DNA of 64,000 nt from Shinella sp. WSJ-2 (GTDB lineage: Bacteria; Pseudomonadota; Alphaproteobacteria; Rhizobiales; Rhizobiaceae). The position numbers were made by a program, and so were the translations under genes. The notes beneath the pieces are model-generated. The model did not search any database and was not told the origin of the DNA. It saw nothing but the letters and a program-made list of their open reading frames with translations. The first letter of the stretch is position 1, and every line of letters starts with the position of its first letter. The DNA lies in the NCBI RefSeq assembly GCF_003432075.1, contig NZ_QWBU01000005.1, positions 1 through 64,000 on the forward strand. Direction: 5' to 3'. Of this stretch, positions 20,340-57,448 are shown in pieces.

Positions 20340-20568
20340 GCCAAGCAAGCGAACCGTTCTCAAGAAACCGCCAACCAAATCTCTGAAACTTTTGGCTGCG
20401 CGAACTGCCCGACTGAGACGGCACCGCGATTAGCAGGAAGCCGAGCTGTATCAGCATGTGAATTAAGCGTCTCAACAAGGTTCGCCCGCAATAACGCACT
20501 GAAAAATATAGATAACTTATGTTATTCAGGGAGAGCGCTATTTTGCGTGAGATTTTTGGTAGCGGAGG
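20340..20568. repeat. Left direct repeat (attL-like), carrying the last 12 nt of tRNA-Met
   Basis: A 229-bp copy of 57219-57448. I count 11 substitutions and one 1-bp indel; the last 72 bp (20497-20568) are identical to 57377-57448. The final 12 bp, TGGTAGCGGAGG, equal the 3' end (with CCA) of the tRNA-Met gene on the minus strand, and similarity stops there. An inner palindrome ATAAC-TTAT-GTTAT is present in both copies. Confidence 0.92.
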
Positions 20569-21019
20569 CAGTCTGACGCGAACGCGTCTCAGAAGCCGAC
20601 TTTCCCTGATAAGAGGCTATTTATAGGGATTTTTCCGGATTCTGCCTTCCTCTAGGCCGCGCGTCAAAATTTAACTAATTAAAATTGGGGCTTTGCATGA
20701 CATTCCCTTACAGCTCGAACAGGGAATTGCTGAATTGGCACCTGGGAAATGTTAAGCCAGAACTGGGACCCGACGAGATGAGGTGCAGCAGCGACTGGCG
20801 CATTCCGCGTCGCAAATCAATTCCGTGCCAGCCGGTCGCCGGCGGCAACGAAAAGCTAAGGCCTGTTATCGTACAGCCATCGATCCGCGCTGGCGCCCCA
20901 GTAAACATACGGAATTTCTGTTGCTACCGATCGGCTTTTGACCTGCGCGGAAATTAATACTTATAGGAATCACCTGGTTAGACGGATTTAAGCCCCCAAA
21001 GTTAGGGACGTCGAATAAT
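20569..21019. other. Intergenic region inside the left end of the island
   Basis: About 450 bp of mixed composition with several AT-rich stretches. A frame from ATG 20697 (about 86 codons) has no ribosome-binding site and is not protein-like. I see no repeat, tRNA or promoter I can defend. Confidence 0.4.
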
Positions 21020-22366
21020 TTATTCGCTCCGTAACCGGCTTTCCGCCCGCAAAACTACAAGCCAATCTTCAACATGTGATGCACGCGACAATGCGGGAAC
21101 CACCAATCGTCGCAAATCGGCTTCAGGCTTCGTCAGCATTCTCGCTCCGGTTGAAGGATCGTACCATTCGATGGACCCGGTCAATGCAGTAAGAACAGAT
21201 GGATCAAGGTCGATCGAGACCGCACCGTCGATATAGACGACAGCGAAGGTCCCGTCGTCCGCAACGGCTGATACGGTGGAGACGGATGGCGCCCCCTCGA
21301 CATGGCGCATGAACCGGCCGTCATCGGGCTTCAACTTCCACCAGTCAAAACGCGCGAACAGGCCCGCCAGATGGCCGATGCTCACGGCCCCCTGACTGGC
21401 AAGCGCCTCACGCCACTCCGCGGGCGTGTCGTAAAGCGCGGGGCCGCCGAAATGCCAGACGGGATTGTTGCCGAAGACCTGGCCGCTCGCGCCCGACAGG
21501 AGGGCGCCATAGGCGATCTTGCGGATCTCGGCCGCCTCCACCCCATGCTCGCCTTCGTAGCGCGCTTCGATCAGGAAGAAGGGTCGATGCGGGCCGGCGC
21601 GATAGCGCGCCTGCACGGCGGCGGCGACGTCCTCGTAGGTATAGACCGTATCGAGCGCCAGCCATCTGGCATCGGGCCAATAGGCGGCAGTCGCAGTGTC
21701 GCGGTTGCCGTGCACGGTCTGCATCGCGCCGGGCGCGCCCTCCGCGATGCCTTCCGCCAGCGCCTCGACCAGCGCGCGGTCCGGCGGATCGTAATCGCCG
21801 CCCTGCACCCAGACGATATTGGGATAGCGGGCATAGCGTTTGCCGACATAGCGTCCGTAGGCGCGCAGCGCATCGGGACCGGCGGCCGCCATCTCGGCAT
21901 ACCAACCCTGCGGCCCGCCGTTCGCGCCGGCATAGGCGGGCGCCAGCAGGACCAGCATGCCGGCCCGGAATGCGGCGTCGAGCACATGTTCGGCATCGGA
22001 GAAATAGCGGTCGTTCGGCCGCGTAAAATCGCCGGGCACCAGGAACGGGGGGATACCAGCGGCATTGTTCGGCGCGTTGCGGGCGAATTCATGCTCGATC
22101 AGCGAGACCAGGATGGTGTTGAAGCCGCGCGCCTTGCGATCGGCGATGTAGAGATCGGCGTCTTCGGCCGGCAGGTCCGAGATCAGCGACCAGGCCGCAT
22201 CGCCGGTAATGAGAAAGGGTTTTCCGGCCGCGTCCTCCAGATAGGTGCCTGCGGCGGCGATGCGCAGTGGAAAGCGGACCTCGGCGCTGGCGGGCGGGGC
22301 GTCGCCGGCCAGCAAGGCAAGCAGCACGAGGCAGAGCCGCATGGAAAAGGCAATGGTTCGCATCAT
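21020..22366 (-). CDS. DUF4038-type glycoside hydrolase, secreted
   Basis: A 448-residue protein with a signal peptide (hydrophobic MRLCLVLLALLAGDAPPASA, cut near residue 28). A TIM-barrel-like domain follows (PFLITGDAAWSLISDLPAED, then ARYPNIVWVQGGDYDPPDRA) of the DUF4038/apiosidase-like class. A small C-terminal beta domain (GSIEWYDPSTGARM) typical of these enzymes ends the protein. It would act in the periplasm or outside, trimming or degrading the polysaccharide made by this locus. It lies 27 bp downstream of a GT4 gene on the same strand, probably one operon. Substrate unknown. Confidence 0.82.
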   Translation of the reverse strand: MMRTIAFSMRLCLVLLALLAGDAPPASAEVRFPLRIAAAGTYLEDAAGKPFLITGDAAWSLISDLPAEDADLYIADRKARGFNTILVSLIEHEFARNAPNNAAGIPPFLVPGDFTRPNDRYFSDAEHVLDAAFRAGMLVLLAPAYAGANGGPQGWYAEMAAAGPDALRAYGRYVGKRYARYPNIVWVQGGDYDPPDRALVEALAEGIAEGAPGAMQTVHGNRDTATAAYWPDARWLALDTVYTYEDVAAAVQARYRAGPHRPFFLIEARYEGEHGVEAAEIRKIAYGALLSGASGQVFGNNPVWHFGGPALYDTPAEWREALASQGAVSIGHLAGLFARFDWWKLKPDDGRFMRHVEGAPSVSTVSAVADDGTFAVVYIDGAVSIDLDPSVLTALTGSIEWYDPSTGARMLTKPEADLRRLVVPALSRASHVEDWLVVLRAESRLRSE

Positions 22367-22393
22367 ATCCGCTCCCTTGGCCGGCGCCGCGGT

Positions 22394-23593
22394 TCAAAGC
22401 CGCTCCCGCACACCCCGCAGCCAGTTCTTCAGGGGTGATGGCAGGAAGGTGCGCAGGCCGGCCCGCAGGCCGCGCGGCATCGACCAGCCGTCCAGCGCAA
22501 GGGGGGCAGCGAGCGGCGGCGGGTTTGCCGCGATATCGCGCAGCACCGCCGCATACTGCGCCGCCATGCGCTCCACCGTGAAGGCGCCCGCGACCTTGCG
22601 GCGCGCGCCGAGCGAAAGACCGTGAAGCTGCGCACGGTCCTTGTCCAGCGCGCGGACGATGGCGGCGGCCCTCGCGGTATCGCCGACCGGAAAGAGCAGC
22701 CCGTCCTGTCCATTCTCCACGATCATGTCGGTGACGCCGCGAAGCGCCGAGGCGACAGGCACGCATCCGGCGGCCATGGCCTCCACCAGCGCCATCGGCA
22801 GGCCCTCGTAGCGCGACAGCATGAGGAAGACGTCGTGGGCCGCCAGCAACGCCGGCACGGCATCCGCCGCGACGGCCCCGGTATAGACGACGCGCGGCGT
22901 CACCCCCGGCATGGTGGCCTTCAGCCGCTTGAGATCTGGACCATCGCCAGCGATCGTCAATGTCGATGACGCAGGCAGCCGCTCCAGAATATCGGGCAGC
23001 CACAGGATCCCTTTCGAGGCATCCTCGATCCGCCCGAGGAACAGGAGGCGAAGCCCCTGCCCGATCGGCCGCGCCGGCCGGTCGGCTGCGGGAAAGGCGT
23101 CCAGGGAAACGGCGTTCGCAATGACGAAGGTGCGCCCGGCGGGGAATTGATGGCGTTTCACGAGGTCGTCGCGGCAGCGCTGCGAAACGCAGACCGTCGC
23201 ATGCACATAGGGCCGGATCGCCTCCGCCGCCGCATAGGTTCCCGGCGTGATGTTGTGCACGACCATAAGGCGCAGGAGATAGGGGGGAAGATAGCGCACG
23301 ATATTGGTCTGCACACGGTCGCTGAGCACGTTGACGACGACGCCGTCGAAGCCGCCGGCCAAGATTGCCCGCTCCATCAGGCGGGCGGTGCTCTTCCCAT
23401 CGTCCGAGGCGGTCGCCTCGACGAGCGTGCCGAACGCGGCCTCCCGCTCCATGCCGGCGGGAAGGCCTTGCCCGGCAAGTGTCAGGCCGAGCCAGCAAAG
23501 CTCGATGCCATCAGGCGCCAGGCCGGCGCGCAGATGCCGGAACACGGTATAGGTGCCGCCGAGATGCGGCAGGACGAAATAGGCGATCTTCAT
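22394..23593 (-). CDS. Glycosyltransferase family 4
   Basis: A 399-residue cytoplasmic GT-B enzyme. The start at 23593 gives MKIAYFVLPHLGGTYTVFRH. The C-terminal half has the GT4 donor-site pattern: LRLLFLGRIEDASKGILWLP, then LSRYEGLPMALVEAMAAGCVPVAS with the paired Glu residues. It should add one sugar to the lipid-linked repeat unit. Donor and acceptor cannot be read from sequence. It is divergent from the pyruvyltransferase gene across about 220 bp. Confidence 0.87.
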   Translation of the reverse strand: MKIAYFVLPHLGGTYTVFRHLRAGLAPDGIELCWLGLTLAGQGLPAGMEREAAFGTLVEATASDDGKSTARLMERAILAGGFDGVVVNVLSDRVQTNIVRYLPPYLLRLMVVHNITPGTYAAAEAIRPYVHATVCVSQRCRDDLVKRHQFPAGRTFVIANAVSLDAFPAADRPARPIGQGLRLLFLGRIEDASKGILWLPDILERLPASSTLTIAGDGPDLKRLKATMPGVTPRVVYTGAVAADAVPALLAAHDVFLMLSRYEGLPMALVEAMAAGCVPVASALRGVTDMIVENGQDGLLFPVGDTARAAAIVRALDKDRAQLHGLSLGARRKVAGAFTVERMAAQYAAVLRDIAANPPPLAAPLALDGWSMPRGLRAGLRTFLPSPLKNWLRGVRERL

Positions 23594-23811
23594 GGGCGGC
23601 CCTCTGCCTCCCTTGTCCAACCGGATGCGCCGTCACGGAAGCTGGGCCTTGGACGGCGCAAGCGGCCCTTCGCAGGAGACGGCCGGTTCCCTACCTCTTT
23701 CGGCGGAGGTCCGGTCGCCAAATATCCGCGTTTTCCGCACCGCGTCACGGCGCGATAGTGCGGCCGCTTTGGCAATCCCTTCAGATCCCAATCGACAGCG
23801 GTGGACATTCC

Positions 23812-25047
23812 ATGAAGATCGCCTTGCTCGGGCAGTTCGGGTCCGGAAACTCGGGAAATGACGGTTCGCTGGAAGCGATGCTCGTTTTCATGCGCCGTGC
23901 GTGCCCCGATGCGGCCCTGCTGTGCATCTGCTCCAATCCCGTGGCGATCGGCGAGCGCTTCGCGCTTGAGGTGACCGGCCTTCGCGGCGCGGCCTTCGTC
24001 CACCCGTTGCTGCGTTGGTTCGATGGGAGGCTCGGACGGATCCACGGCCGGCTCACCGGCCTGGTCTCGATCCTGCGGGTGCTCGGCGGCGTGGACGTGA
24101 TGGTCATCCCGGGGACGGGCATCCTCGACGACTTCCAGGAGACGCCGTTCGGCTGGCCGTTCATCGTCTACTGGTGGTGCCTTGCCGCCAGGCTGCGCGG
24201 CGCCCGCATCGCCTTCGTCAGCATCGGCGCCGGCCCGATCCGCGGCGCCCTCAGCCGCTGGTTTCTCACATCCGCGGCGCGAATGGCCACCTATCGTTCC
24301 TACCGCGACGACTTTTCGCTCCGTTACGTCCAGGGCCTGGGCATCGATACCGCTTCGGACCACCGCTTCCCCGACCTTGCCTTCGGATTGCGCGAGCCCG
24401 TCCGCCCCAATGCGATGCAGCGCCGACAAATACCCGCGACAATCGGCATCGGCGTCATGCGCTATCGGGGATGGGAGCGCGACCATGCGGACGGCAATGC
24501 CATCTACCGCACCTACGTGGACAAGATCGCGGCGATCGCGCGCCGGCTGCTCGACGACGGGCATGACGTGCGCCTCTTCATGGGCGACACATCCGATGAG
24601 CGGGCCCTCGACGATATCCTCGCCGCCCTCCCGGAAAACGGCACCCACGGCCACCTTTCGGCAGCGCGCACCGTCTCGCTGCATGCGGTCATGGATGAGA
24701 TCCTGAAGGTCGATCTCGCCATCGTCTCGCGCTTTCACAACCTGCTCTGCACCCTTAAGCTCGACCGGCCGGCGCTGTCGCTCGGCTATGCGGACAAGAA
24801 CGACGAACTCATGACCGAATTCGGCCGGGCCGATTTCTGCCACCACATCGAGACCTTCGACGTCGAGCAGGTCCTGCGGCAGGTGGACACCGTGCTCGCC
24901 GACCTCGCCGCCGCCGAAAGCGCGATTGCCCGCCGCAACGCAGCGATCCGCTCGGAGCTTGTCCGGCAGCAGGACCTGCTTCTCTCGCAGGTGCTGGTCG
25001 CTCGCGGCGGGAAAAGCCTACCCCTTGCACAGGATGCCCTACGCTGA
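23812..25047 (+). CDS. Polysaccharide pyruvyltransferase-family protein
   Basis: A 411-residue cytoplasmic protein starting MKIALLGQFGSGNSGNDGSL, which carries the N-terminal Asn/Gly-rich loop of the family. The core GGVDVMVIPGTGILDDFQ and the C-terminal VSRFHNLLCTLKLDRPALSL are also typical. Members transfer pyruvate from phosphoenolpyruvate to make ketal substituents, giving acidic exopolysaccharides. The ATG at 23812 is chosen because homology begins there. A flippase and a GT2 gene follow on the same strand, so this is the first gene of a three-gene unit. Confidence 0.85.
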   Translation: MKIALLGQFGSGNSGNDGSLEAMLVFMRRACPDAALLCICSNPVAIGERFALEVTGLRGAAFVHPLLRWFDGRLGRIHGRLTGLVSILRVLGGVDVMVIPGTGILDDFQETPFGWPFIVYWWCLAARLRGARIAFVSIGAGPIRGALSRWFLTSAARMATYRSYRDDFSLRYVQGLGIDTASDHRFPDLAFGLREPVRPNAMQRRQIPATIGIGVMRYRGWERDHADGNAIYRTYVDKIAAIARRLLDDGHDVRLFMGDTSDERALDDILAALPENGTHGHLSAARTVSLHAVMDEILKVDLAIVSRFHNLLCTLKLDRPALSLGYADKNDELMTEFGRADFCHHIETFDVEQVLRQVDTVLADLAAAESAIARRNAAIRSELVRQQDLLLSQVLVARGGKSLPLAQDALR

Positions 25048-25149
25048 ATGGACAAGTGGCCACCGTCCCCCATGCGCCTATCCTCGTTGCAACCGGCGGA
25101 GTGAAGCCATGCCCCAGAGACCAGAAGCCCCCAGCCCTTTCCGGAAAGC

Positions 25150-26634
25150 GTGAGCAGCATGGTCCGACGCGCTTATGTTATGGCATCGCTGGAGCAGTAT
25201 TTCGCGCTGCTCATCAATTTCACGGTGCTGGTGATCATGGCCCGCATCCTGACGCCCGGCGAAATCGGCGAGGCGGTGACGGGTCTCGCGGTCGCCGTCG
25301 TCGCCTTCTCCGCCCGCGAATTCGTGACGCCGGAATTCCTCATCCAGCGCAGCACCGTCGATGCCGAGGCGCTGCGCACAGCGCTGACGCTTCAAGTCGC
25401 CGTCAGCGCGGTGATCGCTGGCGGCCTCGTCGCCGTGTCGGGCCTCGTCGCCCGCTTCTATGCCGCGCCGGACCTCTCCTTCTTCCTTTTGCTCGCTGCG
25501 GCGGCGGGACTGGCCGAGTCCCAGGCCCAGCCCGTCATCGCCCTGCTCCGGCGCGAGATGGGTTTTGGCGCGCTCGCCTGCATCCGCACGGCGGTTTCGC
25601 TGACGACCGCGCTTGTAACGATCGCGCTCGCCATCCTCGGCTTCGGTCCCGTCAGCTTCGCATGGGGCATGCTTGCGGGGTCGCTCACGCTCGCGATGCT
25701 GGCCGTTGCCTGTTCGCCGTTTCCCGCAGCGGCGATTTTCCGCCCAGGCCTTGCGCGCTGGCGCGAGGTGCTGGCCTTCGGCCTGTTCAAGGGGGCCGCA
25801 CTCGTGGTGGAGCGCATTCACGAGACCGTGCCGCAGTTGATCCTCGGCCGGATCGCCTCCATGACCTCGGTCGCGCTCTACAACCGGTCGAACGCCCTGT
25901 GCGGCATACCCGACCGCATCATCATGTCAGCCTTCCACAGCATGGCCTTCCCAGCACTGGCAAGCCGCGTGCGGGAGGGGCACGACATCGAGAAGACCTA
26001 TCTCGGCGTGCTCGCCTATCTGTCGGTTCTCTACTGGCCGGGTGCGGCGCTGATCTCGCTTCTCGCGCCGTCGATCGTGGGCATCGTGCTCGGCCCGCAA
26101 TGGGCGGAAGCCGTGCCGGTCGTGCGCGTTCTGGCGCTCGCCGCCGTTTTCTGGCTGCCCGTTATCGTGACGGGGCCGCTTCTCCTGGCGCTCGGCCGCA
26201 ACAGGGACGCGTTCCTGGCAAGCCTTGTCTCGCGCTGCTTTGCCGCCGGCATCCTTTGCGCCGCCAGCCTCTACGGTGTGATGGCAATGGCGCTCAGCCA
26301 GTTCGTCTCGCTTCCCCTCCAAATGCTGGTCGCGCTCGTCTTCGTGCATCGCCACGTTCGCTTTTCCCTGCTTGGCCTTCTCACAGCACTGATGCCGAGC
26401 GCCGTCGTCACCGGTTTCTCGCTGGCAGGGCCGGTCGTACTGCTGGCACTGCCCGGACATCCAGACGCGGGCCTGCCCGGGTTTTGCGCCGCGATCCTCC
26501 TTGCCGGCATCGGCTGGCTGATCGGGCTGCTCGCCACGCGCCACCCGTTCCTCGCCGAACTGCACATCCTGCTCGCCGCCGGCCGCGACCATGCCCGCCG
26601 CCTGCGCCGGTTTCTCGTCGCATCGGGGGCCTGA
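25150..26634 (+). CDS. Wzx-type oligosaccharide flippase
   Basis: A 494-residue integral membrane protein with about 12-14 predicted helices and the N-terminal LINFTVLVIMARILTPGEIG of the polysaccharide-transporter (MOP superfamily) class. It should flip undecaprenyl-linked repeat units across the inner membrane. The start is GTG 25150 or ATG 25159; both lie within the same few codons. It sits between the pyruvyltransferase and GT2 genes, with only 3 bp before the latter. It is the only flippase-like gene in the window, which supports a Wzx/Wzy scheme. Confidence 0.9.
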   Translation: MSSMVRRAYVMASLEQYFALLINFTVLVIMARILTPGEIGEAVTGLAVAVVAFSAREFVTPEFLIQRSTVDAEALRTALTLQVAVSAVIAGGLVAVSGLVARFYAAPDLSFFLLLAAAAGLAESQAQPVIALLRREMGFGALACIRTAVSLTTALVTIALAILGFGPVSFAWGMLAGSLTLAMLAVACSPFPAAAIFRPGLARWREVLAFGLFKGAALVVERIHETVPQLILGRIASMTSVALYNRSNALCGIPDRIIMSAFHSMAFPALASRVREGHDIEKTYLGVLAYLSVLYWPGAALISLLAPSIVGIVLGPQWAEAVPVVRVLALAAVFWLPVIVTGPLLLALGRNRDAFLASLVSRCFAAGILCAASLYGVMAMALSQFVSLPLQMLVALVFVHRHVRFSLLGLLTALMPSAVVTGFSLAGPVVLLALPGHPDAGLPGFCAAILLAGIGWLIGLLATRHPFLAELHILLAAGRDHARRLRRFLVASGA

Positions 26635-26637
26635 GCC

Positions 26638-27609
26638 ATGCCGAGCGTCGACGTCGTCATTCCGAACTACAATTACGGCCGCTATCTCGAAGCCTGCGTG
26701 AAAAGCGTGCTCTCGCAGGACATGCACGATGTGCGCGTCCTGATCGTCGACAATGCCTCGACGGACGACAGCGTCGCGGTCGCCGAACGCCTCGCCTTCG
26801 GTGATCCGCGGGTGGAACTGCTGCTGCGGCCGGAAAACATCGGCCCCCACGCCTCCTTCAATGCGGGGATCGACTGGGCGCGGGGCGACTACTTCCTCCT
26901 GCTCTTCGCGGACGATTTCCTGGTGCCGGGCGCACTGCGCCGGGCGACATCCGTCATGGAACGGGACCGCGCCATCGCCTTCTCCTACGGCCGCGACGTC
27001 GCGATCCGGGGCGATGCGCCGATCCCCGAGATCGAAGCGCAGCCCGCCGCCCCGCCGGTGACGCTGATGACGGGGCGGGCCTTCATCGAGCGCTTCTGCC
27101 GCCTCGGTGTCTTCCAGATCCCCGGACCGTCCATCGTCGTGCGCACGAGCGTGCAGAAACGCGCCGGCCACTATCGGCCGGCCCTGCCGCACAGCGACGA
27201 CTACGAACTCTGGCTGCGGCTTGCCTTGCACGGAACCGTCGCCGAACTGGATTGCATCCAGGCGGGCATCCGTTCGCACAATGCGAACCGGTCCACGGAC
27301 CTTTGGGCGCACCAGATACTGCACATCCGCCATACGGCGGATGCGGCCGAGAGTTTCTTCTACCATGAGGGACGTTGGCTCGACGGGGCGGAGACGTTGC
27401 GCCGCCGCGCCCGGCGCGGCATTGCCGAGCGCGCTTACTGGTCGGCGGTGTCGCATGCGCTCCGGGGAAACAGGCAGGCGTGGAAGCTGCTGATGCTCGC
27501 CTTCCGCATGGCGCCGGCGACCGCCGTGCTGCCGCCGCTCGGCTATCTGCTGCACCGGCCCGATACGGTGCCGCGCATGCGCTCCCTTCTCTCCAAGGTC
27601 CTACGATAG
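26638..27609 (+). CDS. Glycosyltransferase family 2
   Basis: A 323-residue GT-A enzyme starting MPSVDVVIPNYNYGRYLEAC. It has the nucleotide-binding LIVDNASTDDS and the metal-site LLLFADDF (DxD-like ADD). A later PHSDDYELWLRLA motif is typical of the acceptor side. It is cytoplasmic or membrane-associated and would extend the lipid-linked repeat unit. It is coupled to the flippase gene (3-bp gap) and converges on the export-protein gene, with only 3 bp between the stops. Confidence 0.88.
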   Translation: MPSVDVVIPNYNYGRYLEACVKSVLSQDMHDVRVLIVDNASTDDSVAVAERLAFGDPRVELLLRPENIGPHASFNAGIDWARGDYFLLLFADDFLVPGALRRATSVMERDRAIAFSYGRDVAIRGDAPIPEIEAQPAAPPVTLMTGRAFIERFCRLGVFQIPGPSIVVRTSVQKRAGHYRPALPHSDDYELWLRLALHGTVAELDCIQAGIRSHNANRSTDLWAHQILHIRHTADAAESFFYHEGRWLDGAETLRRRARRGIAERAYWSAVSHALRGNRQAWKLLMLAFRMAPATAVLPPLGYLLHRPDTVPRMRSLLSKVLR

Positions 27610-27612
27610 ACT

Positions 27613-28857: not shown

Positions 28858-28870
28858 GGTGCTTTTAACC

Positions 28871-30394: not shown

Positions 30395-30422
30395 GACTGA
30401 ATTCCTGTTATGGGAGCCGGGT

Positions 30423-31226
30423 TCACGCCCGGCTGTTCTGATAGGTCTCGTCGGACATGATCTCGCCGACCTTGCAGGCGACCTCCGTGCGATTGGTCGC
30501 GCCGAGCTTCTTCATGATGTTGCGGATGTGAACCTTCACCGTGCTTTCACAAAGGTTGAGTTCGCGGGCGATGATCTTGTTCGCCTTGCCCCGGCGCAGC
30601 GCTTCGGCGACCGCGGCCTGGCGCACCGTGAAGGCGGATCGGCCGCAGACCTTTTGCGGATAGCTGCCGAGAAGGCCGCGCATCGCAAGCACGCTGCTGG
30701 CAGGAACGAACTGTCCGCCGGCAATGGCAAGCCCGATCGCCTCGATGCAGATATCGATATCGACGGAGCTTGGAATGAAGCCGTGGACGCCGAGGTCGAT
30801 GACCTCGAGAACATGGTCGAGTGTCTGGTTGTCGGACAGCACCACCACCGGCACCGGCTCCAGCGTCGTCAGGAGCTGCGTGATCTCATCCCTGAGATCG
30901 GGCTCGGAGACATTCCTGCTGCCGATATTGACGAGGCTGGCGCGAAGAGTGCCGAGGTTGGCCTTGCCCTGCTGCCAGGCGGCAAGTCCTGAAAAGGTGA
31001 AGACGCTGATACCGATGCGATGCGAATGCAGGCTGTTGGCGAGACATTCCCGGTCGAGATTCCGCTTGTCGAAGATCGCGACATAGTCGCTTGCGGCATA
31101 TTGCTGAGGCTGTTGCCGGTCGATGTACTCCCTGGACTCGGCGCGCGGGTCGCTGCCGATCGAATTCCTTGTCCGGAAAATATCGATCGACTCTTCGTCG
31201 AAATCCGCTTCGTCGTCTCTCGCCAT
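30423..31226 (-). CDS. LuxR-type regulator with degenerate receiver domain
   Basis: A 267-residue protein. After a ~45-residue polar leader comes a receiver-like domain (about 48-170) and a C-terminal LuxR HTH (about 203-260, NKIIARELNLCESTVKVHIR). At the expected phosphorylation site the sequence is ASLVNIGSRN, with Asn at about 100 in place of Asp. The conserved Lys region reads GFIPSSV with Ser. Phosphorylation in the normal way is therefore unlikely. It is a close relative of the regulator at 38884-39633. It lies just upstream of the wzz-like gene and probably controls the locus. Confidence 0.85.
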   Translation of the reverse strand: MARDDEADFDEESIDIFRTRNSIGSDPRAESREYIDRQQPQQYAASDYVAIFDKRNLDRECLANSLHSHRIGISVFTFSGLAAWQQGKANLGTLRASLVNIGSRNVSEPDLRDEITQLLTTLEPVPVVVLSDNQTLDHVLEVIDLGVHGFIPSSVDIDICIEAIGLAIAGGQFVPASSVLAMRGLLGSYPQKVCGRSAFTVRQAAVAEALRRGKANKIIARELNLCESTVKVHIRNIMKKLGATNRTEVACKVGEIMSDETYQNSRA

Positions 31227-31293
31227 GGTACCCCTCACTAATTTCCTGGTCAGAATTACGAGTCTGGGTCTGCGTCGATCCGTGCTGTCTGCC

Positions 31294-38883: not shown

Positions 38884-39633
38884 TCAGTCGTAGAGGTCGT
38901 TGAGCTTGAAGATCACTTCCGTCCGGTTGCGGACCTTGAGCTTCTTCATGATGTTGCGGATATGGACCTTAACGGTGCTTTCGCGCAGGTCGAGCTCATA
39001 GGCTATGATCTTGTTGGCCTTGCCGAGCTTGAGCATCGCGATGACGTCCTCTTCCCGGCAGGTGAAGATTTCGGCCCGCTTGCGCTCCTGCTGGTCGGCG
39101 GCCGACATCAGCCTGCGCAGTTCGGGCAGGCTCTCGGTGGAGATGAAAACGCCGCCCGAAAGCGCCAGCGAGATTGCTTTCACGCAGACTGAAATGCCCA
39201 CGGCCGAGGGAATGAACCCTCTGACGCCGAGATCGAGCGCCGTCAGGACCTGTCGCAGGTCATGGTTGTCCGAAAGGATGATGACCGGCAGATCCGGGAA
39301 CCGCGAAACGAGCATGCGGAGGTCGTTTTCGATGCGCGGCTCGGTGCAGTCGCGGCTGCCGACATTGATCAGCACACCGCTCGATGCCTCGACATATTTC
39401 GACATCCAGGCTTCGATGGAGTTGAAGAGCACGATCGTCATATCGAGACCGTGCGAGACAAGACTTTGGGAAAGACACTCGCGATCAAGTGTCCGTTCGT
39501 CGATCATGTCCAGTATCCGCGTATTTGCCAAAGCAGTCTTTGCCGGATTGACGGGCGTGAAAGCTGGCAGCCGCGCGATCCCGTTCAAGACCCTCCCGCG
39601 GCTCAACCCGTTTATTCCTCTGACCTCGACCAC
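38884..39633 (-). CDS. LuxR-type regulator with degenerate receiver domain
   Basis: A 249-residue paralogue of the regulator at 30423-31226. The receiver-like part (about 38-160) has SGVLINVGSRD at the phosphorylation site, with Asn at about 90 replacing Asp. GFIPSAV stands where the conserved Lys should be. The LuxR HTH (about 188-242) reads NKIIAYELDLRESTVKVHIR, nearly the same as its paralogue, so both may bind similar sites. It is divergent from the giant CheB-CheR hybrid gene across an AT-rich gap containing a perfect inverted repeat. Confidence 0.85.
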   Translation of the reverse strand: MVEVRGINGLSRGRVLNGIARLPAFTPVNPAKTALANTRILDMIDERTLDRECLSQSLVSHGLDMTIVLFNSIEAWMSKYVEASSGVLINVGSRDCTEPRIENDLRMLVSRFPDLPVIILSDNHDLRQVLTALDLGVRGFIPSAVGISVCVKAISLALSGGVFISTESLPELRRLMSAADQQERKRAEIFTCREEDVIAMLKLGKANKIIAYELDLRESTVKVHIRNIMKKLKVRNRTEVIFKLNDLYD

Positions 39634-46289: not shown

Positions 46290-46438
46290 GGGTCCGCTTT
46301 CGCACGAGGAGACGCCGGGCACGACGCTTCGTACCCCGTCGGCCCGAGAGTTAGCGATGGGACGGGTGGACCGGCAAGGTGGCCGTTCGGGGGACAGGAG
46401 ACGATCCGCCGCCGGCCGGCCGGGCGACGCCGTCGTCC

Positions 46439-46479: not shown

Positions 46480-46583
46480 TAGGGTGGTGAGGCGGCATTC
46501 CTCCTAGCGCCTTTGGAGAGCTTGCCGCCCGCCCGCCGGCTGGCAGGATCGCACGTTGAAGACCAACGATGCGGGGCGGCTCC

Positions 46584-50277: not shown

Positions 50278-50282
50278 ACCCG

Positions 50283-50870: not shown

Positions 50871-52138
50871 GAATGGACGAGCCTCCCTGGCGCAAGCGGA
50901 TCGGCATGGGGGCGCCTGACGGGGACGACCGCCAGCGCCAGCGACGGCACGAGGAACAGCACCATATGCACCCAGGCCATGATCACCCAGTCGGTCTGAT
51001 GCGAGACGACATGCATCGCCGGCACAACGGACAGCATGTAGACGAGCTGGCCCGCCGCTTGCCCCTCCTTGGCGCTCGCCCAGAGCCTTGCCAGCAGATA
51101 GGCGATCAGGAAGAACTTCGCCGCGCCGAAATACCAGAAGGACTGGAACGCATCGGCCATGCCGGTCTCCGTCGTCCCGGTGAGCGCGTTGTAATCGCGC
51201 GCCATGGGCGGCGTCTTCAGCATCAGGGAGCGCTTTGCCGCCTCGCCGACGAGTTGGGAGGGCACATAGTTGAACACCAGCCGATTCCAGTGGAACTTGC
51301 CGTAGTCGAATTCCAGCGAGGTCGCGGCATGGTCGATGCGCAGGATCGCATTGCGCACCTCCAGCCCGCCCTCCTGCAACGTCGCCCGGAAATTCGCGGA
51401 GACGTCGATCTGGCCGATATCCTGCCAGATCGGGCCGGAATTCGCCCGCGTGATCGCCCGGTAGTCGCCCATGCTGTTCATGAGGAACGTGCCGAGCAGC
51501 ACGCCGGCGAGCGCGATCGTCCGGGGCGCCAGCCATCCCCTATGGAACCAGAAGGCGACGGCGAAGATGGCGACAAGCTCGATGGCTTCCGCCCGCTTGC
51601 CGGTGACGACGATGCGGTCGAGATAGAAGACGAGATCGAAGGCGACGATGGAGAATGCGAAGAGCGACGTCCGCCTCGCAAGGCAAAGAACGCCGAGCGC
51701 AAGCCCATAGGTCATGAGCCGTGCGACGAAGAGGTATATCACCGGCACACCGCTCATCTGCACGCCGACGACCATGTCACCCGGCAGGCGGCTCAGCTTG
51801 AAGTAGAAATAGGCGCCGATGACCGAGAGCACGGCGGAGACGATCAGCAGACGCCGCTCGCCGAAATTGCGGCGCAGGAAGGCGACCGGCTTTTGCGTGG
51901 AAGACCAGCCGAGCCAGGCCGCAGCAAGGCACAGGATCGTGAACGCCGCCATCCGCTCGTAGGCGCCGCGCGGCAGGAATCGGTCGTCCATCAATCCGGG
52001 AATTTGCGGCAGGAGAAAGCTCACGGCCATGACGCCGACAAGGAAGGGCAGCTGGTAGATCCGCCCCGGCGCCATCATGCCCCACAGAAGCAGCAGCGCG
52101 ACCGTCAGGCAGAGGAGACAGGTCAACAGCAGGTTCAC
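50867..52138 (-). CDS. Probable Wzy-type polysaccharide polymerase
   Basis: A 423-residue membrane protein starting at GTG 52138 (MNLLLTCLLCLTVALLLLWG). It has about 10-12 helices and a large polar loop (about 215-330, with RAITRANSGPIWQDIG and WNRLVFNYVPSQL) before the last helices. Sequence similarity within this class is always low. The call rests on topology and on being the only such gene in a locus with a flippase and a chain-length protein. It would join repeat units on the periplasmic face. Confidence 0.68.
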   Translation of the reverse strand: MNLLLTCLLCLTVALLLLWGMMAPGRIYQLPFLVGVMAVSFLLPQIPGLMDDRFLPRGAYERMAAFTILCLAAAWLGWSSTQKPVAFLRRNFGERRLLIVSAVLSVIGAYFYFKLSRLPGDMVVGVQMSGVPVIYLFVARLMTYGLALGVLCLARRTSLFAFSIVAFDLVFYLDRIVVTGKRAEAIELVAIFAVAFWFHRGWLAPRTIALAGVLLGTFLMNSMGDYRAITRANSGPIWQDIGQIDVSANFRATLQEGGLEVRNAILRIDHAATSLEFDYGKFHWNRLVFNYVPSQLVGEAAKRSLMLKTPPMARDYNALTGTTETGMADAFQSFWYFGAAKFFLIAYLLARLWASAKEGQAAGQLVYMLSVVPAMHVVSHQTDWVIMAWVHMVLFLVPSLALAVVPVRRPHADPLAPGRLVHS

Positions 52139-52258
52139 GGGCGGGCCTCCTTCCCGAAAGCGCGGGATCGCGAAACATCAACCGCCGGAAGGGGAAGCCT
52201 CGTGTCTCCCCAGTCCCGACGGCGGTCGCGGGAAGGCAGCGCCGTCCGCGACGAACGA

Positions 52259-53092
52259 TCAGACCGGCAAGCCTTCTTCCCGCCGCCGCAGTTCCTCGGT
52301 CTTGATGACGATCATGTATTCGTAGGCCGCGAGCAGCCGGCAGTAGTGGTAGCCTTCCTTCCCGTCGAGAAACCCGCCGCGCAGCACGTACATGTAGAGG
52401 AAGCGCGCGGCCGGCCGGAACGGCAGGCGCATGGACAGTTCCTTCAGCGCCCGTCGGCGCACCTCCGGCACGCCGCTCAGGACGTCGCGCCACGGCACGC
52501 GCTTGTCGCGCAGGCTGATCACCGTCTCGCGCGCCTCCGACGAGGAGTAGCGGTTGTGCTTCTCGTACCAGGCGTTCATGCCCTTGTTGAAGCTGTAATG
52601 GATGAAATGCGCCTCGAGCCGCCCTTCCGGGCCCTCGGTCAGGCAGCGCGAATGGGCATCGCGCTCGTAGCGCACGCGATCGGGCCGCACCAGCCGCGTG
52701 ATCCAGGTCGGGTAGAGGCTCGAGTGCTTGATCCAGCGGCCCATGAACATGTTCTTGTAGCGAATGCGGAAGGCACTTTCGGGCCGCGTGTGATCGCGGG
52801 CGATCGCCAGCATCTCGTCGCGCAGGTCGGGCGGGGTAATCTCGTCGGCATCGGGTGTGTAGACCCAGGCGTATTTGTATTCGATCTCCTTCAGCCCGTA
52901 GGTGCGCTGGTGCGATTCCGTGTCGTGCACCCGCTGGTAGACCCGCGCGCCGGCAGCCCTTGCAATCTCCAACGTCGCGTCGGTGGAATAGGAATCGAGC
53001 ACTACGATATCATCGCACCAGTCCAGCGAGGCAAGGCAGGCGGGAAGGTTCCTCTCCTCGTTCAACGTCATGATCAGTACGGAAATCGACAT
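52259..53092 (-). CDS. Glycosyltransferase family 2 (WaaE-like)
   Basis: A 277-residue GT-A enzyme beginning MSISVLIMTLNEERNLPACL. CDDIVVLDSYSTDATLEIA and the metal-binding VYTPDADEITP (DAD) mark the nucleotide-sugar site. The all-helical C-terminal part (YMYVLRGGFLDGKEGYHYCR) is typical of the WaaE-like glucosyltransferases. ATG 53092 is the natural start; the upstream frame is a shadow. It lies 11 bp after the initiating-transferase gene, so it may add the second sugar. Confidence 0.88.
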   Translation of the reverse strand: MSISVLIMTLNEERNLPACLASLDWCDDIVVLDSYSTDATLEIARAAGARVYQRVHDTESHQRTYGLKEIEYKYAWVYTPDADEITPPDLRDEMLAIARDHTRPESAFRIRYKNMFMGRWIKHSSLYPTWITRLVRPDRVRYERDAHSRCLTEGPEGRLEAHFIHYSFNKGMNAWYEKHNRYSSSEARETVISLRDKRVPWRDVLSGVPEVRRRALKELSMRLPFRPAARFLYMYVLRGGFLDGKEGYHYCRLLAAYEYMIVIKTEELRRREEGLPV

Positions 53093-53103
53093 TGCGGTCC
53101 TCC

Positions 53104-54180
53104 CTACACCTGCAACTTGATGGACGGACGTGCAGCCCGATGGCCCCGCCGGTGCGTGGCGCTTTCGACGGCAAGCACAAAAGCGCTGTGGGCAGCGGCG
53201 ACGAGCACCAGGCCGACCACCATCACCGGCGTCGGCACGTCGAACAGCAGCCCGAGATAGCCGATGCCGCCGCACAGAAAGGAAATGAGGACGATGACGT
53301 AGCAGGTGGCCGCCGGCGAGAGGCCGGAATCGATCAGCAGATGGTGCAGGTGCCGGCGGTCCGCCGACATGGGGCTGCGATGATCGAGCAGGCGGCGCAC
53401 CATGAGGCTCAACGTATCGATTACCGGAAGGATCACCAGCCACAGCAGGGACGGGAAAGGCAGGCTCTCCGCGCCATCCGACAGGCGTAGGATCAGATAG
53501 GCGATGATCGCGCCCAGCGCCGTGCTGCCGGCATCGCCGAGATAGACGGAGGCACGGGCGCGCCAGGGACTGCGCAGGTTGAAGAGGAGGAAGCCGCCGA
53601 CCGCCGCCAGCAGTGCGGCAACCGGAAAGACGAGCCCGTCCTCGCCCGCATGGAGCACCAGCAGAAGGATCCAGACGAGCGTGGCCGCAGCACTACCTCC
53701 GGCAAGGCCGTCGACGCCGTCCACCATGTTCCAGGCGTTGATCAGCCCGACGACGAAGGCGACGGAGACGACGAGGAGGACGGCATGGCCGCCGATGCCC
53801 GCGACCGGCAGCATATCGCCGAGCGAAATCGGCCCCAGGCCCTCCGCGGCGATCAGCGCCACGGCGATCAGGACCTGGGCGGCGAAACGGAAGCGTGCGG
53901 GCAGGGCAAAGCGATCGTCGATGACCCCGAGCGTGACGACGAGCAGCGTCGCCGACCAGAAGCCCGGCCCGACATCCATCGCGTTCGCGGTGAGCAGGCT
54001 CATGCCTGAAAAGGCCAGGAAGATCGCAATCCCGCCGCACAGCGGAACGGCGCCTTCATGGATCTTCCGGTGGTCCGGCAGATCGAGGAGATGAAGCGGC
54101 ACCGACAGCCAGCGCAACAGGACGACGAAAAAGGCGCTCAGCGCGAGAGACGCCGAACTTTCGAGCAGCAAGAAGATCAT
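53104..54180 (-). CDS. WecA/MraY-like undecaprenyl-phosphate sugar-1-phosphate transferase
   Basis: A 358-residue integral membrane protein with about 11 helices. It transfers a sugar 1-phosphate, often GlcNAc-1-P, from a UDP-sugar to undecaprenyl phosphate, starting repeat-unit synthesis. The key cytoplasmic motifs are all present: DHRKIHEGAVPLCGG, the catalytic TLGVIDDRFALP, INAWNMVDGVDGLAGG, YLGDAGST and the His-rich DRRHLHHLL. ATG 54180 begins directly with the first helix (MIFLLLESSASLALSAFFVV). It is the only initiating transferase in the locus. Confidence 0.92.
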   Translation of the reverse strand: MIFLLLESSASLALSAFFVVLLRWLSVPLHLLDLPDHRKIHEGAVPLCGGIAIFLAFSGMSLLTANAMDVGPGFWSATLLVVTLGVIDDRFALPARFRFAAQVLIAVALIAAEGLGPISLGDMLPVAGIGGHAVLLVVSVAFVVGLINAWNMVDGVDGLAGGSAAATLVWILLLVLHAGEDGLVFPVAALLAAVGGFLLFNLRSPWRARASVYLGDAGSTALGAIIAYLILRLSDGAESLPFPSLLWLVILPVIDTLSLMVRRLLDHRSPMSADRRHLHHLLIDSGLSPAATCYVIVLISFLCGGIGYLGLLFDVPTPVMVVGLVLVAAAHSAFVLAVESATHRRGHRAARPSIKLQV

Positions 54181-54463
54181 CTGACGCCCCTGCAATCGCG
54201 CCGATGCCCTTACCGTCAGCGGTCAGGTCGCATGGGCGACGATGCAAGCATAGCGTTTGATTCGCCGCTCCGACCATTTGGGCAAAAGGCCGAAGCGACC
54301 GGCGCGAAAGGCGAATTTCATCGGACTGCCCACCCTCGTCTACCCCCTTTCCACCTCCCTCTCCTCCCTTTGGCCGAAGGTGGCAACGTGGCTTTCGGCA
54401 CACGAAAAGGTTACCGTCGCCTTCCTCGCGCACAGCACCCAATCGCGGCAACCAGAGTTCGGC

Positions 54464-55813
54464 ATGATTTACGACCATTGCGTCATCGGCGGCGGTATCG
54501 TGGGCCTGGCAACGGCCATGCGGCTGCTCGAAACCTATCCCGGCAGCAGCCTCCTCCTCCTCGAAAAGGAAGACGCGCTCGGCCGGCACCAGACCGGCCA
54601 CAACAGCGGCGTCATCCATGCCGGCATCTATTATCCACCCGGCAGCCTGAAGGCGGAGCTATGCCGCGAGGGCGCAGAGGCCACCAAGGCGTTCTGCGCG
54701 GAAAATAACATCCGCTTCGAGGTCTGCGGTAAGCTGCTCGTTGCCACGTCCGATCTCGAGATGCAGCGCATGGATGCCCTCTACGAACGCTCGAAGCAGA
54801 ACACGATCGAGATCCATCGCCTCAGCGAGGGAGACCTGAAGGAACGGGAGCCGAACATCCGCGGCCTCGGCGCGCTCTTCGTCCCGTCCACCGGCATCGT
54901 CAGCTATGCCGAAATCTGCCGGGCCATGGGGCGGCGCATCGCGGCGCTCGGCGGCGAGATCCGCCTGTCGACGCGCGTCACCGGCCTTCGCGAAACGGTC
55001 GAGGCCGTCGACATCGCGTCGGACGGCGAGAGCTGGCGGGCGAAAAAGCTGGTGGCCTGCGCCGGGCTGCAATCGGACCGGCTGGCGCTCCTCGCCGCCC
55101 TTGCGATCGAGCACCGCATCGTCCCCTTCCGCGGCGAATATTACCGCCTGCCGGCGGACAAGAACCAGATCGTGCGCCACCTCATCTACCCGATCCCCGA
55201 CCCCGACCTGCCCTTCCTCGGCGTCCACCTGACGCGCATGATCGACGGCAGCGTGACGGTCGGCCCGAACGCCGTGATCGGCTTTGCCCGCGAGGGCTAT
55301 CCCCGCCTCTCCGTCAATCTGTCCGACATGGCCGACTATGCCCGGTTTCCCGGCTTCTGGAAAACCGTCCTCGCCCACCGCAAATCCGCCATGACCGAGC
55401 TCAGAAACTCGCTCTGGAAACGCGGCTACCTAGAGGAATGCCGGAAATACTGCCCAAGCCTCACCCTTTCCGACCTGCTGCCGCACCAGGCCGGCATCCG
55501 CGCCCAGGCCGTCCATCGCGACGGCACCCTCATCCACGATTTCCTCTTCGCCCAAACCGACCGCATGCTCCATGTCTGCAACGCGCCTTCGCCCGCAGCG
55601 ACCTCGGCGATCCCGATTGCGGACATGATCGTGACCCGCCTATTCGAAACCAGCGGAGCCGGAAGATCGACATCATTGTCGTTTATAAGATCGACCGCCT
55701 CACCCGCTCGCTCATGGACTTTTCCCGCATTGTCGAAATTTTTGATCGGCATGACGTTTCCTTCGTCTCCATCACGCAGCAGTTTAATACGACCACGTCC
55801 ATGGGCCGCCTGA
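54464..55813 (+). CDS. lhgO: L-2-hydroxyglutarate oxidase-like FAD enzyme with a foreign C-terminal tail
   Basis: FAD-dependent oxidase of the DAO superfamily that oxidises L-2-hydroxyglutarate to 2-oxoglutarate. The start at 54464 gives MIYDHCVIGGGIVGLATAMR with the dinucleotide-binding GGGIVG. HQTGHNSGVIHAGIYY, IVPFRGEYYRL and the C-terminal LHVCNAPSPAATSAIPIADM are diagnostic. Normal sequence ends near residue 397, then about 52 residues are out-of-frame translation of the recombinase remnant. The natural stop was evidently lost at the junction near 55650. The enzyme core is complete and may work. Its place beside polysaccharide genes is unexplained. Confidence 0.85.
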   Translation: MIYDHCVIGGGIVGLATAMRLLETYPGSSLLLLEKEDALGRHQTGHNSGVIHAGIYYPPGSLKAELCREGAEATKAFCAENNIRFEVCGKLLVATSDLEMQRMDALYERSKQNTIEIHRLSEGDLKEREPNIRGLGALFVPSTGIVSYAEICRAMGRRIAALGGEIRLSTRVTGLRETVEAVDIASDGESWRAKKLVACAGLQSDRLALLAALAIEHRIVPFRGEYYRLPADKNQIVRHLIYPIPDPDLPFLGVHLTRMIDGSVTVGPNAVIGFAREGYPRLSVNLSDMADYARFPGFWKTVLAHRKSAMTELRNSLWKRGYLEECRKYCPSLTLSDLLPHQAGIRAQAVHRDGTLIHDFLFAQTDRMLHVCNAPSPAATSAIPIADMIVTRLFETSGAGRSTSLSFIRSTASPARSWTFPALSKFLIGMTFPSSPSRSSLIRPRPWAA

Positions 55814-57147
55814 CCCTCAATGTACTTCTGTCCTTCGCTCAGTTCGAACGCGAGGTCACCGCCGAGCGCATTCGCGACAAGGTGGCAGCTTCCAAGAAGA
55901 AGGGAATGTGGATGGGTGGGAATGTGCCCCTTGGGTACCGGGCGGTAGAGCGCGAGCTAGTGATAGACGAGCAGGAAGCGCGGTCAGTACGATGGCTCTT
56001 TGTCCGTTACCTCGATCTCCGTTCCCTGACCGCCCTATCGCAAGAAGCACATTCCATCGGGCTTCACCGCCGCGAAACCAGGAAGGTGACGGAGACACCC
56101 TTTGGCCGCGGCAAGCTACATCATCTGCTCACCAATCCGATCTATGTCGGCAAGATTCGCCACAAGGATGCGGTTTATGATGGCGAACACGAGCCGATTG
56201 TTGACGACAGCCTCTTCAACCAGGTGCAAGCCGCTTTAGCGATCCTGGCACCGAACAGACGGTCCGCCACGAACACCCGAGATCGCCATCTGCTTGGTGG
56301 ACTCCTCTGCGATGACAAGGGCCGAAGCCTGCTGCTTTCCCACGCGCAGAATCACAGCCGTCGTTATCGTTACTACGCGTCGCGCCCTGACGATGCAGAG
56401 GCCAAGGGCATTCGGTGGCGGCTATCATCAAGCATGATCGAGCCGATCGTTGAACAGCAGCTTCGCGATCTACTAAACGACAAACTGCAATTGTCACGGT
56501 GGTCCGAGGATCTTCATCAGGCAAAGCCTATTGAGGATGTCGCGGCAGCCGCAGTGGCACTCAACAGGCGATACCAGCGTCTTGACGATCACGTAACGAA
56601 GCAGGAAATCCTGCGCGGCGTGTTCCATAGGATCATTCTCAAACCAGACACGATCACGTTTGAAATATCGCCCCGCACCTTATTCGCGACACTTGCTGGT
56701 GACCGGTCAGTAGCAGTGAAGCACGGCGACGAGAACGACGTCCTCACAATCGTCGTCCCCGTCCAGTTGAAGCGAAAAGGGATCGAAAGTCGGATCGTGC
56801 TGCAGGGCGCGACAACGCTCCCAGCGAGGAAAGACCCGATGTTGATCGGCATGATTGCCAGAGCCCATCTCTATCTTGAGGCCCTCACCGATGGCGCCAA
56901 TGCCAGCCATGCCGACATCGCGGCACGCTTCAACGCACACGGCCCCGACATCAGTCGCATCCTACCCATGGCGTTTCTATCGCCAAAGATCACTGAAGCG
57001 ATTCTCACCGGGCAGCAGCCGGTCGACCTCAGCATCGCCAAGCTCACCCGCATGCTCGATTTGCCGATTGGGTGGAAAGACCAGCACGCGCTGCTGATGA
57101 CTAAAAACGGACATAACCCGGCGAAACAAATTGGCTTGTCGACCTAA
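55657..57147 (+). pseudogene. Large serine recombinase lacking the catalytic N-terminus
   Basis: The remaining ~496 codons begin RKIDIIVVYKIDRLTRSLMD and continue QQFNTTTSMGRLTLNVLLSF. They include the recombinase domain (NVPLGYRAVERELVIDEQEA, then HHLLTNPIYVGKIRHKD) and a C-terminal part of the type common in rhizobial elements. The first ~70 residues, with the nucleophile Ser and the conserved Arg cluster, are absent; DNA upstream is the lhgO gene in another frame. The protein cannot catalyse strand exchange. It ends 71 bp before the right direct repeat, the usual place for an element's own integrase gene. Confidence 0.88.
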
Positions 57148-57218
57148 CAGGAAGACGAGCCGACGTCGTTCTGGCTACCTCGGGCGACCAGCGTTGATCA
57201 GGCCCCCGTGGTGTGAGT

Positions 57219-57448
57219 GCCAAGCAAGCGAACTGTTCTCAAGAAACCGCCAGCCAAATCTCTGAAACTTTTGGCTGCGCGAACTGCCCAACTGAGACGG
57301 CACAGCGATTTAGCAGGAAGCCGAGCCGTATCAGGATGGGAATTAAGCGCCTCAACAAGGTTCGACCGCAACAACTCACTGAAAAATATAGATAACTTAT
57401 GTTATTCAGGGAGAGCGCTATTTTGCGTGAGATTTTTGGTAGCGGAGG
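57219..57448. repeat. Right direct repeat (attR-like) running into the tRNA-Met 3' end
   Basis: 230-bp partner of 20340-20568, in the same orientation. The terminal 72 bp are identical and include the last 12 nt of the tRNA-Met gene. Divergence (about 7% over the remaining ~158 bp) lies away from the tRNA. Confidence 0.92.

Follow-up and report, generated by a model that had tools for sequence, protein, structure and literature searches.

Repeats around a polysaccharide locus

The window, by which we mean the whole 64,000-nucleotide stretch of Shinella sp. WSJ-2 DNA analysed here, contains a 37-kb block of polysaccharide-type genes located between two copies of a direct repeat, with an intact tRNA-Met(cat), the only tRNA gene that ARAGORN finds in the window, at the right copy. 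The block holds glycosyltransferases (including the GT4 family), Poly_export, Wzz, GDP-mannose dehydratase, epimerases, LuxR-type regulators, a CheB/CheR hybrid kinase and an apiosidase. From left to right, the features are:

1-20343: accessory module left of the island, within the tRNA-Met hotspot (patchy and elsewhere in congeners)
20011-20343, minus strand: stress-type gene, its N-terminal side cut where the left arm begins (intact 197-aa reading frame in genome G012; continues in G020)
20340-20556: left repeat copy, putatively the arm of an older, same-family element (repeat alignment; 95% identical to the right arm and 86% to that of G007)
20557-20568, minus strand: putative attL core, a copy of the tRNA 3′ end (repeat alignment)
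20569-20635: putative left end of the newer element, with the minus-strand motif CAGACTG (matches G015 and G008)
21020-54195: polysaccharide block (Pfam scans; collinear in G012)
54464-55641, plus strand: FAD-dependent oxidoreductase gene (Pfam DAO), which we take to be LhgO-like, its 3′ end cut where the recombinase remnant begins
about 55648-57147, plus strand: large serine recombinase remnant (Pfam and alignment to the G008 protein)
57219-57436: right repeat copy, putative recombinase-side arm of the newer element (repeat alignment; same arm in G007)
57437-57448, minus strand: putative attR core, the final 12 nt of the tRNA, common to the left copy (repeat alignment)
57437-57513, minus strand: tRNA-Met(cat), the docking gene, 3′ end toward the island
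57647-58978, minus strand: mnmA-type gene (Pfam tRNA_Me_trans), conserved chromosomal right flank in 21 of 21 genus genomes

Alignment of 20340-20568 with 57219-57448 gives 218 identical columns out of 230, with 11 substitutions, one 1-bp indel and no differences in the last 72 columns, which reproduces the original prediction to the base. Its geometry was equally accurate: the right copy stops 12 bp inside the 3′ end of the intact tRNA, the left copy stops at the same tRNA base with no tRNA behind it, both bracket the polysaccharide genes, and a recombinase remnant adjoins the right copy. The island is thus bounded by a whole tRNA at one end and, in direct orientation, by a 12-nt fragment of it at the other, and from a dyad the crossover at the tRNA end is predicted to lie near 57441-57442, at a CT dinucleotide some five to six bases before the tRNA ends. 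Many scattered copies, named beforehand as grounds for abandoning the prediction, were not found: a search of the 5.14-Mb genome (E ≤ 0.001) returned two, both in the window, and a scattered repeat family is rejected.

The recombinase, its arm and its putative tRNA targets

The enzyme beside the right copy appears, from its domains, to be a large serine recombinase of which the C-terminal part alone survives. Measured on a 571-aa relative, the remnant starts at about residue 75-77, so that the N-terminal part with the catalytic serine region is absent, and it matches positions 60-145 only of the Resolvase domain, plus the Recombinase domain; the copy in G008 is intact. The island does have an integrase of its own next to the tRNA, though truncated, and with the enzyme reduced in this way it is therefore probably locked. 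Matches of the oxidoreductase to its homologues in congeners end at 55632-55652. Of two intact recombinase loci that were looked at, both have DUF3489 and one has DUF2924. No relaxase or transfer genes were seen among 30 island ORFs scanned with Pfam, a subset of the frames in which some ORFs may be non-genes.

The 218 bp outside the tRNA had been taken for duplicated flank, and this part of the original prediction did not hold. Because the same sequence continues into the recombinase gene in Shinella kummerowiae (G007), these 218 bp are the recombinase-side arm of the element and not chromosomal DNA; since the arm travels with the recombinase there, a duplication of the chromosomal flank is ruled out.

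The predicted tRNA-targeted integration, in contrast, is supported as site-specific integration at the tRNA-Met 3′ end, by an enzyme whose family is often found at such ends. A survey covered the best 80 of 212 relatives of the recombinase, two of the 80 being Shinella genomes already in the set. A tRNA lies no more than 1.5 kb from the 3′ end of the recombinase gene in 44 of the 80, always convergent (44/44) and with 13 anticodons in all; the other 36 have none at that distance, and 65 of the 80 had that much sequence. The share applies to these 80. In 21 of 45 cases the motif CAGT or CAGAC starts with the third base that follows CCA. On a recombinase tree built by a quick search, with 5 of 82 proteins left out for in-frame stops, tRNA type changes 17 times, against at least 27 times in 200 shuffles, and so follows the tree. 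We think it rather likely that the recombinase belongs to a broad, mostly alphaproteobacterial set of large serine integrases that dock at specific tRNA 3′ ends (Met, Leu, Ser, Gln, Thr, Tyr, Ala, Arg), about half of them having a half-site fixed at the third position past CCA and their targets following the tree, and that in Shinella such elements stack at one tRNA-Met, where the N-terminus was lost repeatedly (three of four copies, at three different points) and large cargo was frozen in place.

The tRNA-Met hotspot across the genus

The tRNA-Met gene lies beside mnmA in all 21 Shinella genomes, and the spacer at it varies from 2.1 to 148 kb (sizes derived by hand from coordinates); its 3′ end is a docking site for mobile DNA, used repeatedly across the genus. 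The left-end motif occurs in three of the 21 (the present genome, G000, and two others, G008 and G015), in each downstream of tRNA-Met and in one orientation, at 50 kb in G015 and 81 kb in G008; it is absent from the 18 others, and a reversed control gave none. These are three of the four genomes with the recombinase beside tRNA-Met, and in the fourth, G007, the sequence stops 2.2 kb past the tRNA. In G008 the putative attL is followed, after about 0.4 kb, by the core flank that is conserved in all 21 genomes. The core-side border was reached in six of nine relatives tried (G011, G012, G019, G008, G015 and G013), and of these six G008 alone has an exact match of at least 6 nt to the tRNA end there.

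In the present genome, where the conserved core flank is on contig C2, neither a second left-end motif (allowing up to 3 mismatches) nor an older recombinase was found, and a search of C2:1-17000 for the far end of an older element returned no copy of the tRNA end with one mismatch or fewer. The 12-nt end of the tRNA recurs, with no more than one mismatch, in the spacers of G002, G004, G014 and G019 and, reversed, in those of G008, G018 and G006; these copies have no left-end motif in the scanned sequence and are not claimed as att sites. Outside this set, Rhizobium sp. Root482 has three weak left-end-like matches, none of them placed as attL, and two genomes searched alongside it, including S. 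kummerowiae, have none; one same-order genome, G056, matches the left-end stretch at 74%.

The DNA to the left of 20340 was not found beside tRNA-Met in any of the 20 congeners, where the sequence read there covered about 19 kb (18 genomes), 5.9 kb (G010) or 2.2 kb (G007). Where it does occur, it is on other contigs, or on the same contig some 600 kb (G001) or 2.5 Mb (G002) from tRNA-Met, and the left ‘outside’ (1-20343) is accessory as well. The empty site that had been expected, in which 20340-side DNA joins tRNA-Met directly with one repeat copy, was accordingly not seen in these 20 genomes; the conserved neighbour, present in all 21, is on C2 in this one.

Nor was the polysaccharide block found in the DNA read beside tRNA-Met in any of the 20 congeners; in the five that have it, block and tRNA-Met are on different contigs, and in G013, the nearest relative by mnmA, the whole 148-kb spacer has no match to the window. 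G012 has part of the module (15926-20343) 4.4 kb from the block in the same order and orientation, and neither arm nor recombinase match was found in it. The same locus at this position in distant relatives without the repeats was to have counted against the original prediction, and G012 goes half of the way: there the block adjoins the same left-flank genes, free of repeats, though not at tRNA-Met. Module identity to G016 is 96-97%, whereas the block is 85-87% and the module part only 84% identical to G012, so that module and block have different recent histories. A 124-bp oxidoreductase fragment lies next to the module in G020; the circular permutation to which it might have pointed was dropped as too thinly supported.

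Proposed serial insertion and the alternatives

We consider it somewhat probable that two successive insertions by serine integrases of the same family took place at the tRNA-Met 3′ end, the second carrying the polysaccharide block, with later losses of enzyme. A large serine integrase would join the attP of a circular element to the tRNA at its final nucleotides. The element would bring these final bases along and, with an arm of about 200 bp in between, place its recombinase gene beside the tRNA, and its opposite end (CAGACTG..CTACCA, minus strand) would mark attL. A first element could have left its arm beside tRNA-Met, and a second of the same family, with the block, could then have inserted between the old arm and the tRNA. 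This would leave old arm, tRNA end and new left end on one side (20340-20635), and new recombinase, new arm and tRNA on the other (55648-57513). The left copy is best read as attL, at which the arm of an older element of this family abuts the left end of the newer one, and the ‘230-bp direct repeat’ would then consist of two related arms plus the tRNA end. The repeat, the left end common to three genomes, the position of the recombinase at the tRNA, the hotspot and the truncations are observed; we infer both the order of events and the older origin of the arm at 20340. The older recombinase would have been lost later, at a joint (20340-20343) whose GCCA is common to the stress-type gene and the left arm, and the first 75 or so residues of the newer one at a joint near 55641. 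With both gone, self-driven excision has therefore probably gone too, and the block could still be removed by recombination between the two arms. Several observations count against serial insertion. The CAGTC half-site on the tRNA side is missing from the arms of the window and of G007, neither an older recombinase nor a second left end turned up in this genome, and 36 of the 80 relatives have no tRNA at the distance surveyed; a short match at 20849-20953, described below, points the same way. The adjacency of module and block in G012 without the repeat has to be a coincidence under this model, which is the one fact that resists.

That adjacency is the natural starting point for the alternative that survives best, which we nevertheless hold to be unlikely, namely that module and block came together in the G012 order. 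The left copy would be an attP-type joint already between them on the donor, or the dimer joint of one element, and the block would have reached the tRNA-side recombinase via a break near 55641, where the joint does look illegitimate; the repeats would then not mark the polysaccharide genes as the integrating unit. A short match of 20849-20953 to an ORF beside a module copy in G001 (54% of 35 residues) also hints that DNA to the right of the left end may go with the module. Against such a joint arrival, 12 of the 230 columns differ between the arms, which is unexpected for a fresh dimer, module sequence was not seen in the fetched flanks of the block in G009, G019, G011 and G004, and the identities to G016 and G012 set the two parts apart.

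It is much less probable that the repeat formed without an integrase, for instance because a stretch was duplicated locally or because a second arm copy recombined with the first, and that the recombinase fragment is a bystander. The enzyme is indeed broken, and arm copies without recombinase can exist, as the arm-like 50-bp stretch at C5:287096 of G015, with no recombinase match there, exemplifies; yet both copies stop at the tRNA's own end with different DNA beyond, the left end is common to two other islands, and relatives of the enzyme sit at tRNA 3′ ends. Least credible of all is a contig misjoined through the 72 identical bases present at both joints, even with the contig ending at window position 1, since G008 and G015 independently have the same left end and tRNA layout, 12 columns distinguish the two arms, and 72 bp is shorter than usual sequencing reads.

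The Shinella island resembles Islander-type tRNA islands (PMC4383910): an intact tRNA closes one side, a displaced piece of it closes the other, and an integrase gene adjoins the tRNA. Those islands are defined by tyrosine integrases, however, whereas this one has a serine recombinase, and the 30 island ORFs scanned, a subset of frames, yielded no tyrosine recombinase. The Paracoccus phage vB_PamS_Pami6 (PMC6536676) shares the serine recombinase, the predicted site in a tRNA-Met(CAT) gene and an alphaproteobacterial host; it is an active phage, likened here by enzyme type and target. The Ralstonia filamentous phage phiRSM (PMC4471427), again a phage and not an island, uses a serine recombinase at the 3′ 13 bp of tRNA-Ser, a similar length, but its paper places the enzyme in the resolvase/invertase subfamily and not among large serine recombinases. 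At tRNA-Lys of Streptococcus agalactiae (PMC5704250) a tandem element is described that arose by serial insertion, a chimerical att site separating its decayed part from the newer one; two different tyrosine integrases are involved there, instead of the two elements of one serine family that we propose. The large serine recombinase of Wolbachia phage WO is homologous to the G008 protein (33-42% identity, computed here), although the main text of its paper (PMC9203015) names no tRNA target and lacks the word ‘tRNA’.

With these results, what was an island call becomes a defined mechanism in which the att ends match, the enzyme is placed in a family and the conserved flank is known. They also indicate that a long direct repeat at a tRNA can consist of two element arms instead of duplicated chromosomal DNA, and this shifts where an island is deemed to end. 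The enzyme family in question has seldom been linked to tRNA genes, and the finding bears on a statement printed in 2014, according to which no serine-family integrase is known to use them. The family survey supplies numerous naturally occurring combinations of a serine integrase with its tRNA site, and a tRNA-docking serine set, if true, would run against the older rule that tyrosine integrases alone use tRNA genes.

The repeat, its arm and the left end

The two copies of the direct repeat (20340-20568 and 57219-57448) agree at 218 of 230 alignment columns and differ by 11 substitutions and one indel, none of them in the final 72 columns, just as originally described, and the repeat is not scattered, as only these two copies were found in the genome. 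The right copy reaches 12 nt into a complete tRNA-Met encoded on the minus strand, a gene whose pairing with mnmA is present in all 21 genomes of the genus (this one and its relatives G001 to G020). The 218 bp outside the tRNA had been taken for flank. Chromosomal flank would follow tRNA-Met in relatives, which is the case in one of 20, Shinella kummerowiae (G007), where this stretch (86-87% identical to both window copies) runs on into a recombinase gene in the same layout as at the right copy. Because it follows the tRNA only there among the 20 relatives, and is continuous with the recombinase gene, sequence comparison indicates that it is part of an element, i.e., an element arm instead of flank. 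A related recombinase adjoins the tRNA in G008 and G015 (74-75% over pieces of DNA), and the DNA after the last tRNA base in G003 and G020 is mutually alike by eye. A solitary arm-like stretch of about 50 bp also lies 113 kb downstream of tRNA-Met in G015 (L014:6090-6150; G015:C5:287096), with a hairpin of the CAGCCAAAAGTTT..GGTTGGCG type, such as occurs in the arms of G015 and Rhizobium sp. Root482.

The left end shows a different distribution. Positions 20557-20635 match sites in G015 and G008 that lie downstream of tRNA-Met, at 50.4 and 80.8 kb respectively, in the same orientation. With up to three mismatches, the pattern GAGTTCGCNNCAGACTGCYTYCSCTACCA occurs once each in this genome, G008 and G015 and is absent from the other 18 of the 21 genomes scanned, and its reversed control gave 0 matches; among those 18 is G007, the fourth genome with a recombinase beside tRNA-Met, whose contig ends 2.2 kb past the tRNA. 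The three sites can be read as attL of islands of 37 kb (here), 50 kb (G015) and 81 kb (G008), with differing cargo. Compared with the window, the DNA from tRNA-Met to the conserved core flank (the spacer) matches in G015 at the recombinase only, and in G008 at the recombinase and two short other places only.

Extent and cargo of the hotspot

In G008, about 0.4 kb of unshared DNA separates attL from flank that is conserved in all 21 genomes. Spacer sizes were worked out from the coordinates of this flank and of tRNA-Met.

Spacer length (kb) where conserved flank and tRNA-Met share a contig
G011, 2.1
G012, 16.9
G019, 17.8
G001, 18.9
G009, 19.5
G006, 25.1
G003, 31.9
G005, 53.3
G018, 57.8
G008, 81.2
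G002, 87.9
G015, 133.3
G013, 147.6

The spacer on contig C14 of G011 comes closer to an empty site than any other in the genus, and that of G013, the closest relative by mnmA identity (94%), holds no match to the window. In G017 the flank lies on the tRNA-Met contig near its opposite end (about 95 kb if the contig is circular), and in six relatives and this genome it is on a contig other than that of tRNA-Met. The window comprises the first 64,000 positions of contig C25 (364,525 bp), sequence left of position 1 not being visible, and the flank is found on contig C2, 9.4 kb from its first base; the accessory DNA at the tRNA therefore amounts to at least 66.9 kb, if both contig ends face each other. 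What had been regarded as outside DNA on the left is, on the same proviso, inside it.

This left part (1-20343) is an accessory module that encodes regulators and an ABC transporter and also contains genes of stress type and an ORF of 2888 residues; it is found whole or in part elsewhere in G016 (96-97%), G020 and G007 (93%), G015 (90%), G001 (89%), G017 (83-93%) and G012 (15926-20343, 82-87%), with smaller pieces in other congeners. The identity of 1-19626 to G016 (96-97%, though mnmA is only 84% identical) points to a recent transfer between the two lineages. The contig start (1-311) matches several congeners (e.g., G001, G004, G008, G017), and its counterpart in G009 and G019 lies inverted, at most 200 bp from the end of the polysaccharide block.

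That block (about 21042-54385) is present in six of the 21 genomes: this one, G012 (85-87%), G009, G019 and, more diverged, G011 and G004, the search of all whole genomes having used the part from 36203 on. In the five others it is on contigs other than that of tRNA-Met, and it seems to be accessory DNA of long standing in the genus, placed between these att sites only here. Two of its LuxR-type regulator genes contain copies of a 128-nt repeat (30463-30590 and 38897-39024, 76% identity).

At 20343, where the arm starts, the last gene of the module breaks off, with GCCA common to both at the joint; G012 has the whole gene, and in G020 it runs on. The best explanation of the whole arrangement seems to be serial insertion, in which a newer element carrying the block would have inserted between an older element's arm and tRNA-Met, since known steps then explain the arm order, the tRNA ends, the left end and the recombinase. 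The situation in G012 is at odds with this: on a 734-kb contig, the block and the right part of the module are collinear, with 4.4 kb between them, and nothing in that genome matches the arm, the left end or the recombinase. Either the same neighbours met twice, or module and block travelled together and ended up on either side of an att-like joint. A short match of 20849-20953 to an ORF beside a module copy in G001 (54% over 35 residues, E 5e-6, small database) leans towards joint travel; against it, the module has other nearest matches than the block, at other identities, which is a further reason for preferring serial insertion. No module sequence was found in the DNA fetched beyond the block's left end in G009, G019, G011 and G004.

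A serine recombinase family at tRNA genes

Beside the right copy lies a gene for a large serine recombinase, preserved from about residue 75-77 of 571 onward and preceded by an FAD oxidoreductase gene that ends in a different frame; what is missing is the N-terminal part with the catalytic serine region. Such a recombinase lies beside tRNA-Met in four of the 21 genomes, and three of the four are without the N-terminus (their matches begin at query residues 75, 124 and 224) and keep the tRNA-side part.

N-terminally shortened recombinases beside tRNA-Met
Window, 55648-57147
G007:C39:418643-419644
G015:C5:174576-175913

The G008 protein is intact and has both Pfam domains, its gene being preceded by one for DUF3489, and in Root482 DUF3489, DUF2924 and a full-length recombinase adjoin tRNA-Met. 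More distant copies (48-58%) occur twice in G001 and once each in G002 and G008; the loci in G001 and G002 contain no tRNA, and the G008 copy, a second large serine recombinase of that genome (G008:C2:2332210-2333862, 54% identical), adjoins another tRNA(cat) gene.

A profile built from four proteins gave 212 relatives in named genomes, of which the best 80 were surveyed (G007 and G015 included, as loci L233 and L184). Among these 80, 44 have a tRNA no more than 1.5 kb from the 3' end of the recombinase gene (the sequence extends that far in 65), at a median distance of 245 bp (range 202-624), and two have one upstream; the first tRNA faces the recombinase with its 3' end in all 44. The 45 tRNA-linked proteins lie beside 13 tRNA types, with 17 changes on the recombinase tree compared to at least 27 in 200 shuffles, and the window protein falls in a group of six, all beside tRNA-Met. 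In 21 of the 45 tRNA-linked loci, the third base after CCA is the start of CAGT or CAGAC (the next commonest position has 3), which, together with the CAGACTG of the left end, would place the centre of a dyad five to six bases from the tRNA end, suggesting this point as the predicted crossover; the window and G007 arms are without the half-site. In tblastn against phage records, the best matches after a metagenomic phage were WO phages (33-42%) and AcaML1 (46% over part of the protein).

The Islander paper (2014, PMC4383910) gives tyrosine integrases as the only ones known to target tDNAs, and a 2024 study of hotspots at tRNA genes in S. meliloti reports tyrosine integrases with one ambiguous case. 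Counter-cases are in print for the Paracoccus phage vB_PamS_Pami6 (PMC6536676) and Ralstonia phiRSM (PMC4471427), and for tyrosine integrases a tandem of chimeric type beside a tRNA gene was already known (PMC5704250). In partial coverage of the literature, no description of this serine recombinase group as tRNA-docking was found. The original prediction of tRNA-targeted integration was partly right: integration at tRNA-Met stands, in a hotspot that exceeds the window, with a repeat made mostly of element arms and a serine integrase as the enzyme. It is in this enzyme family that the main interest of the locus lies.
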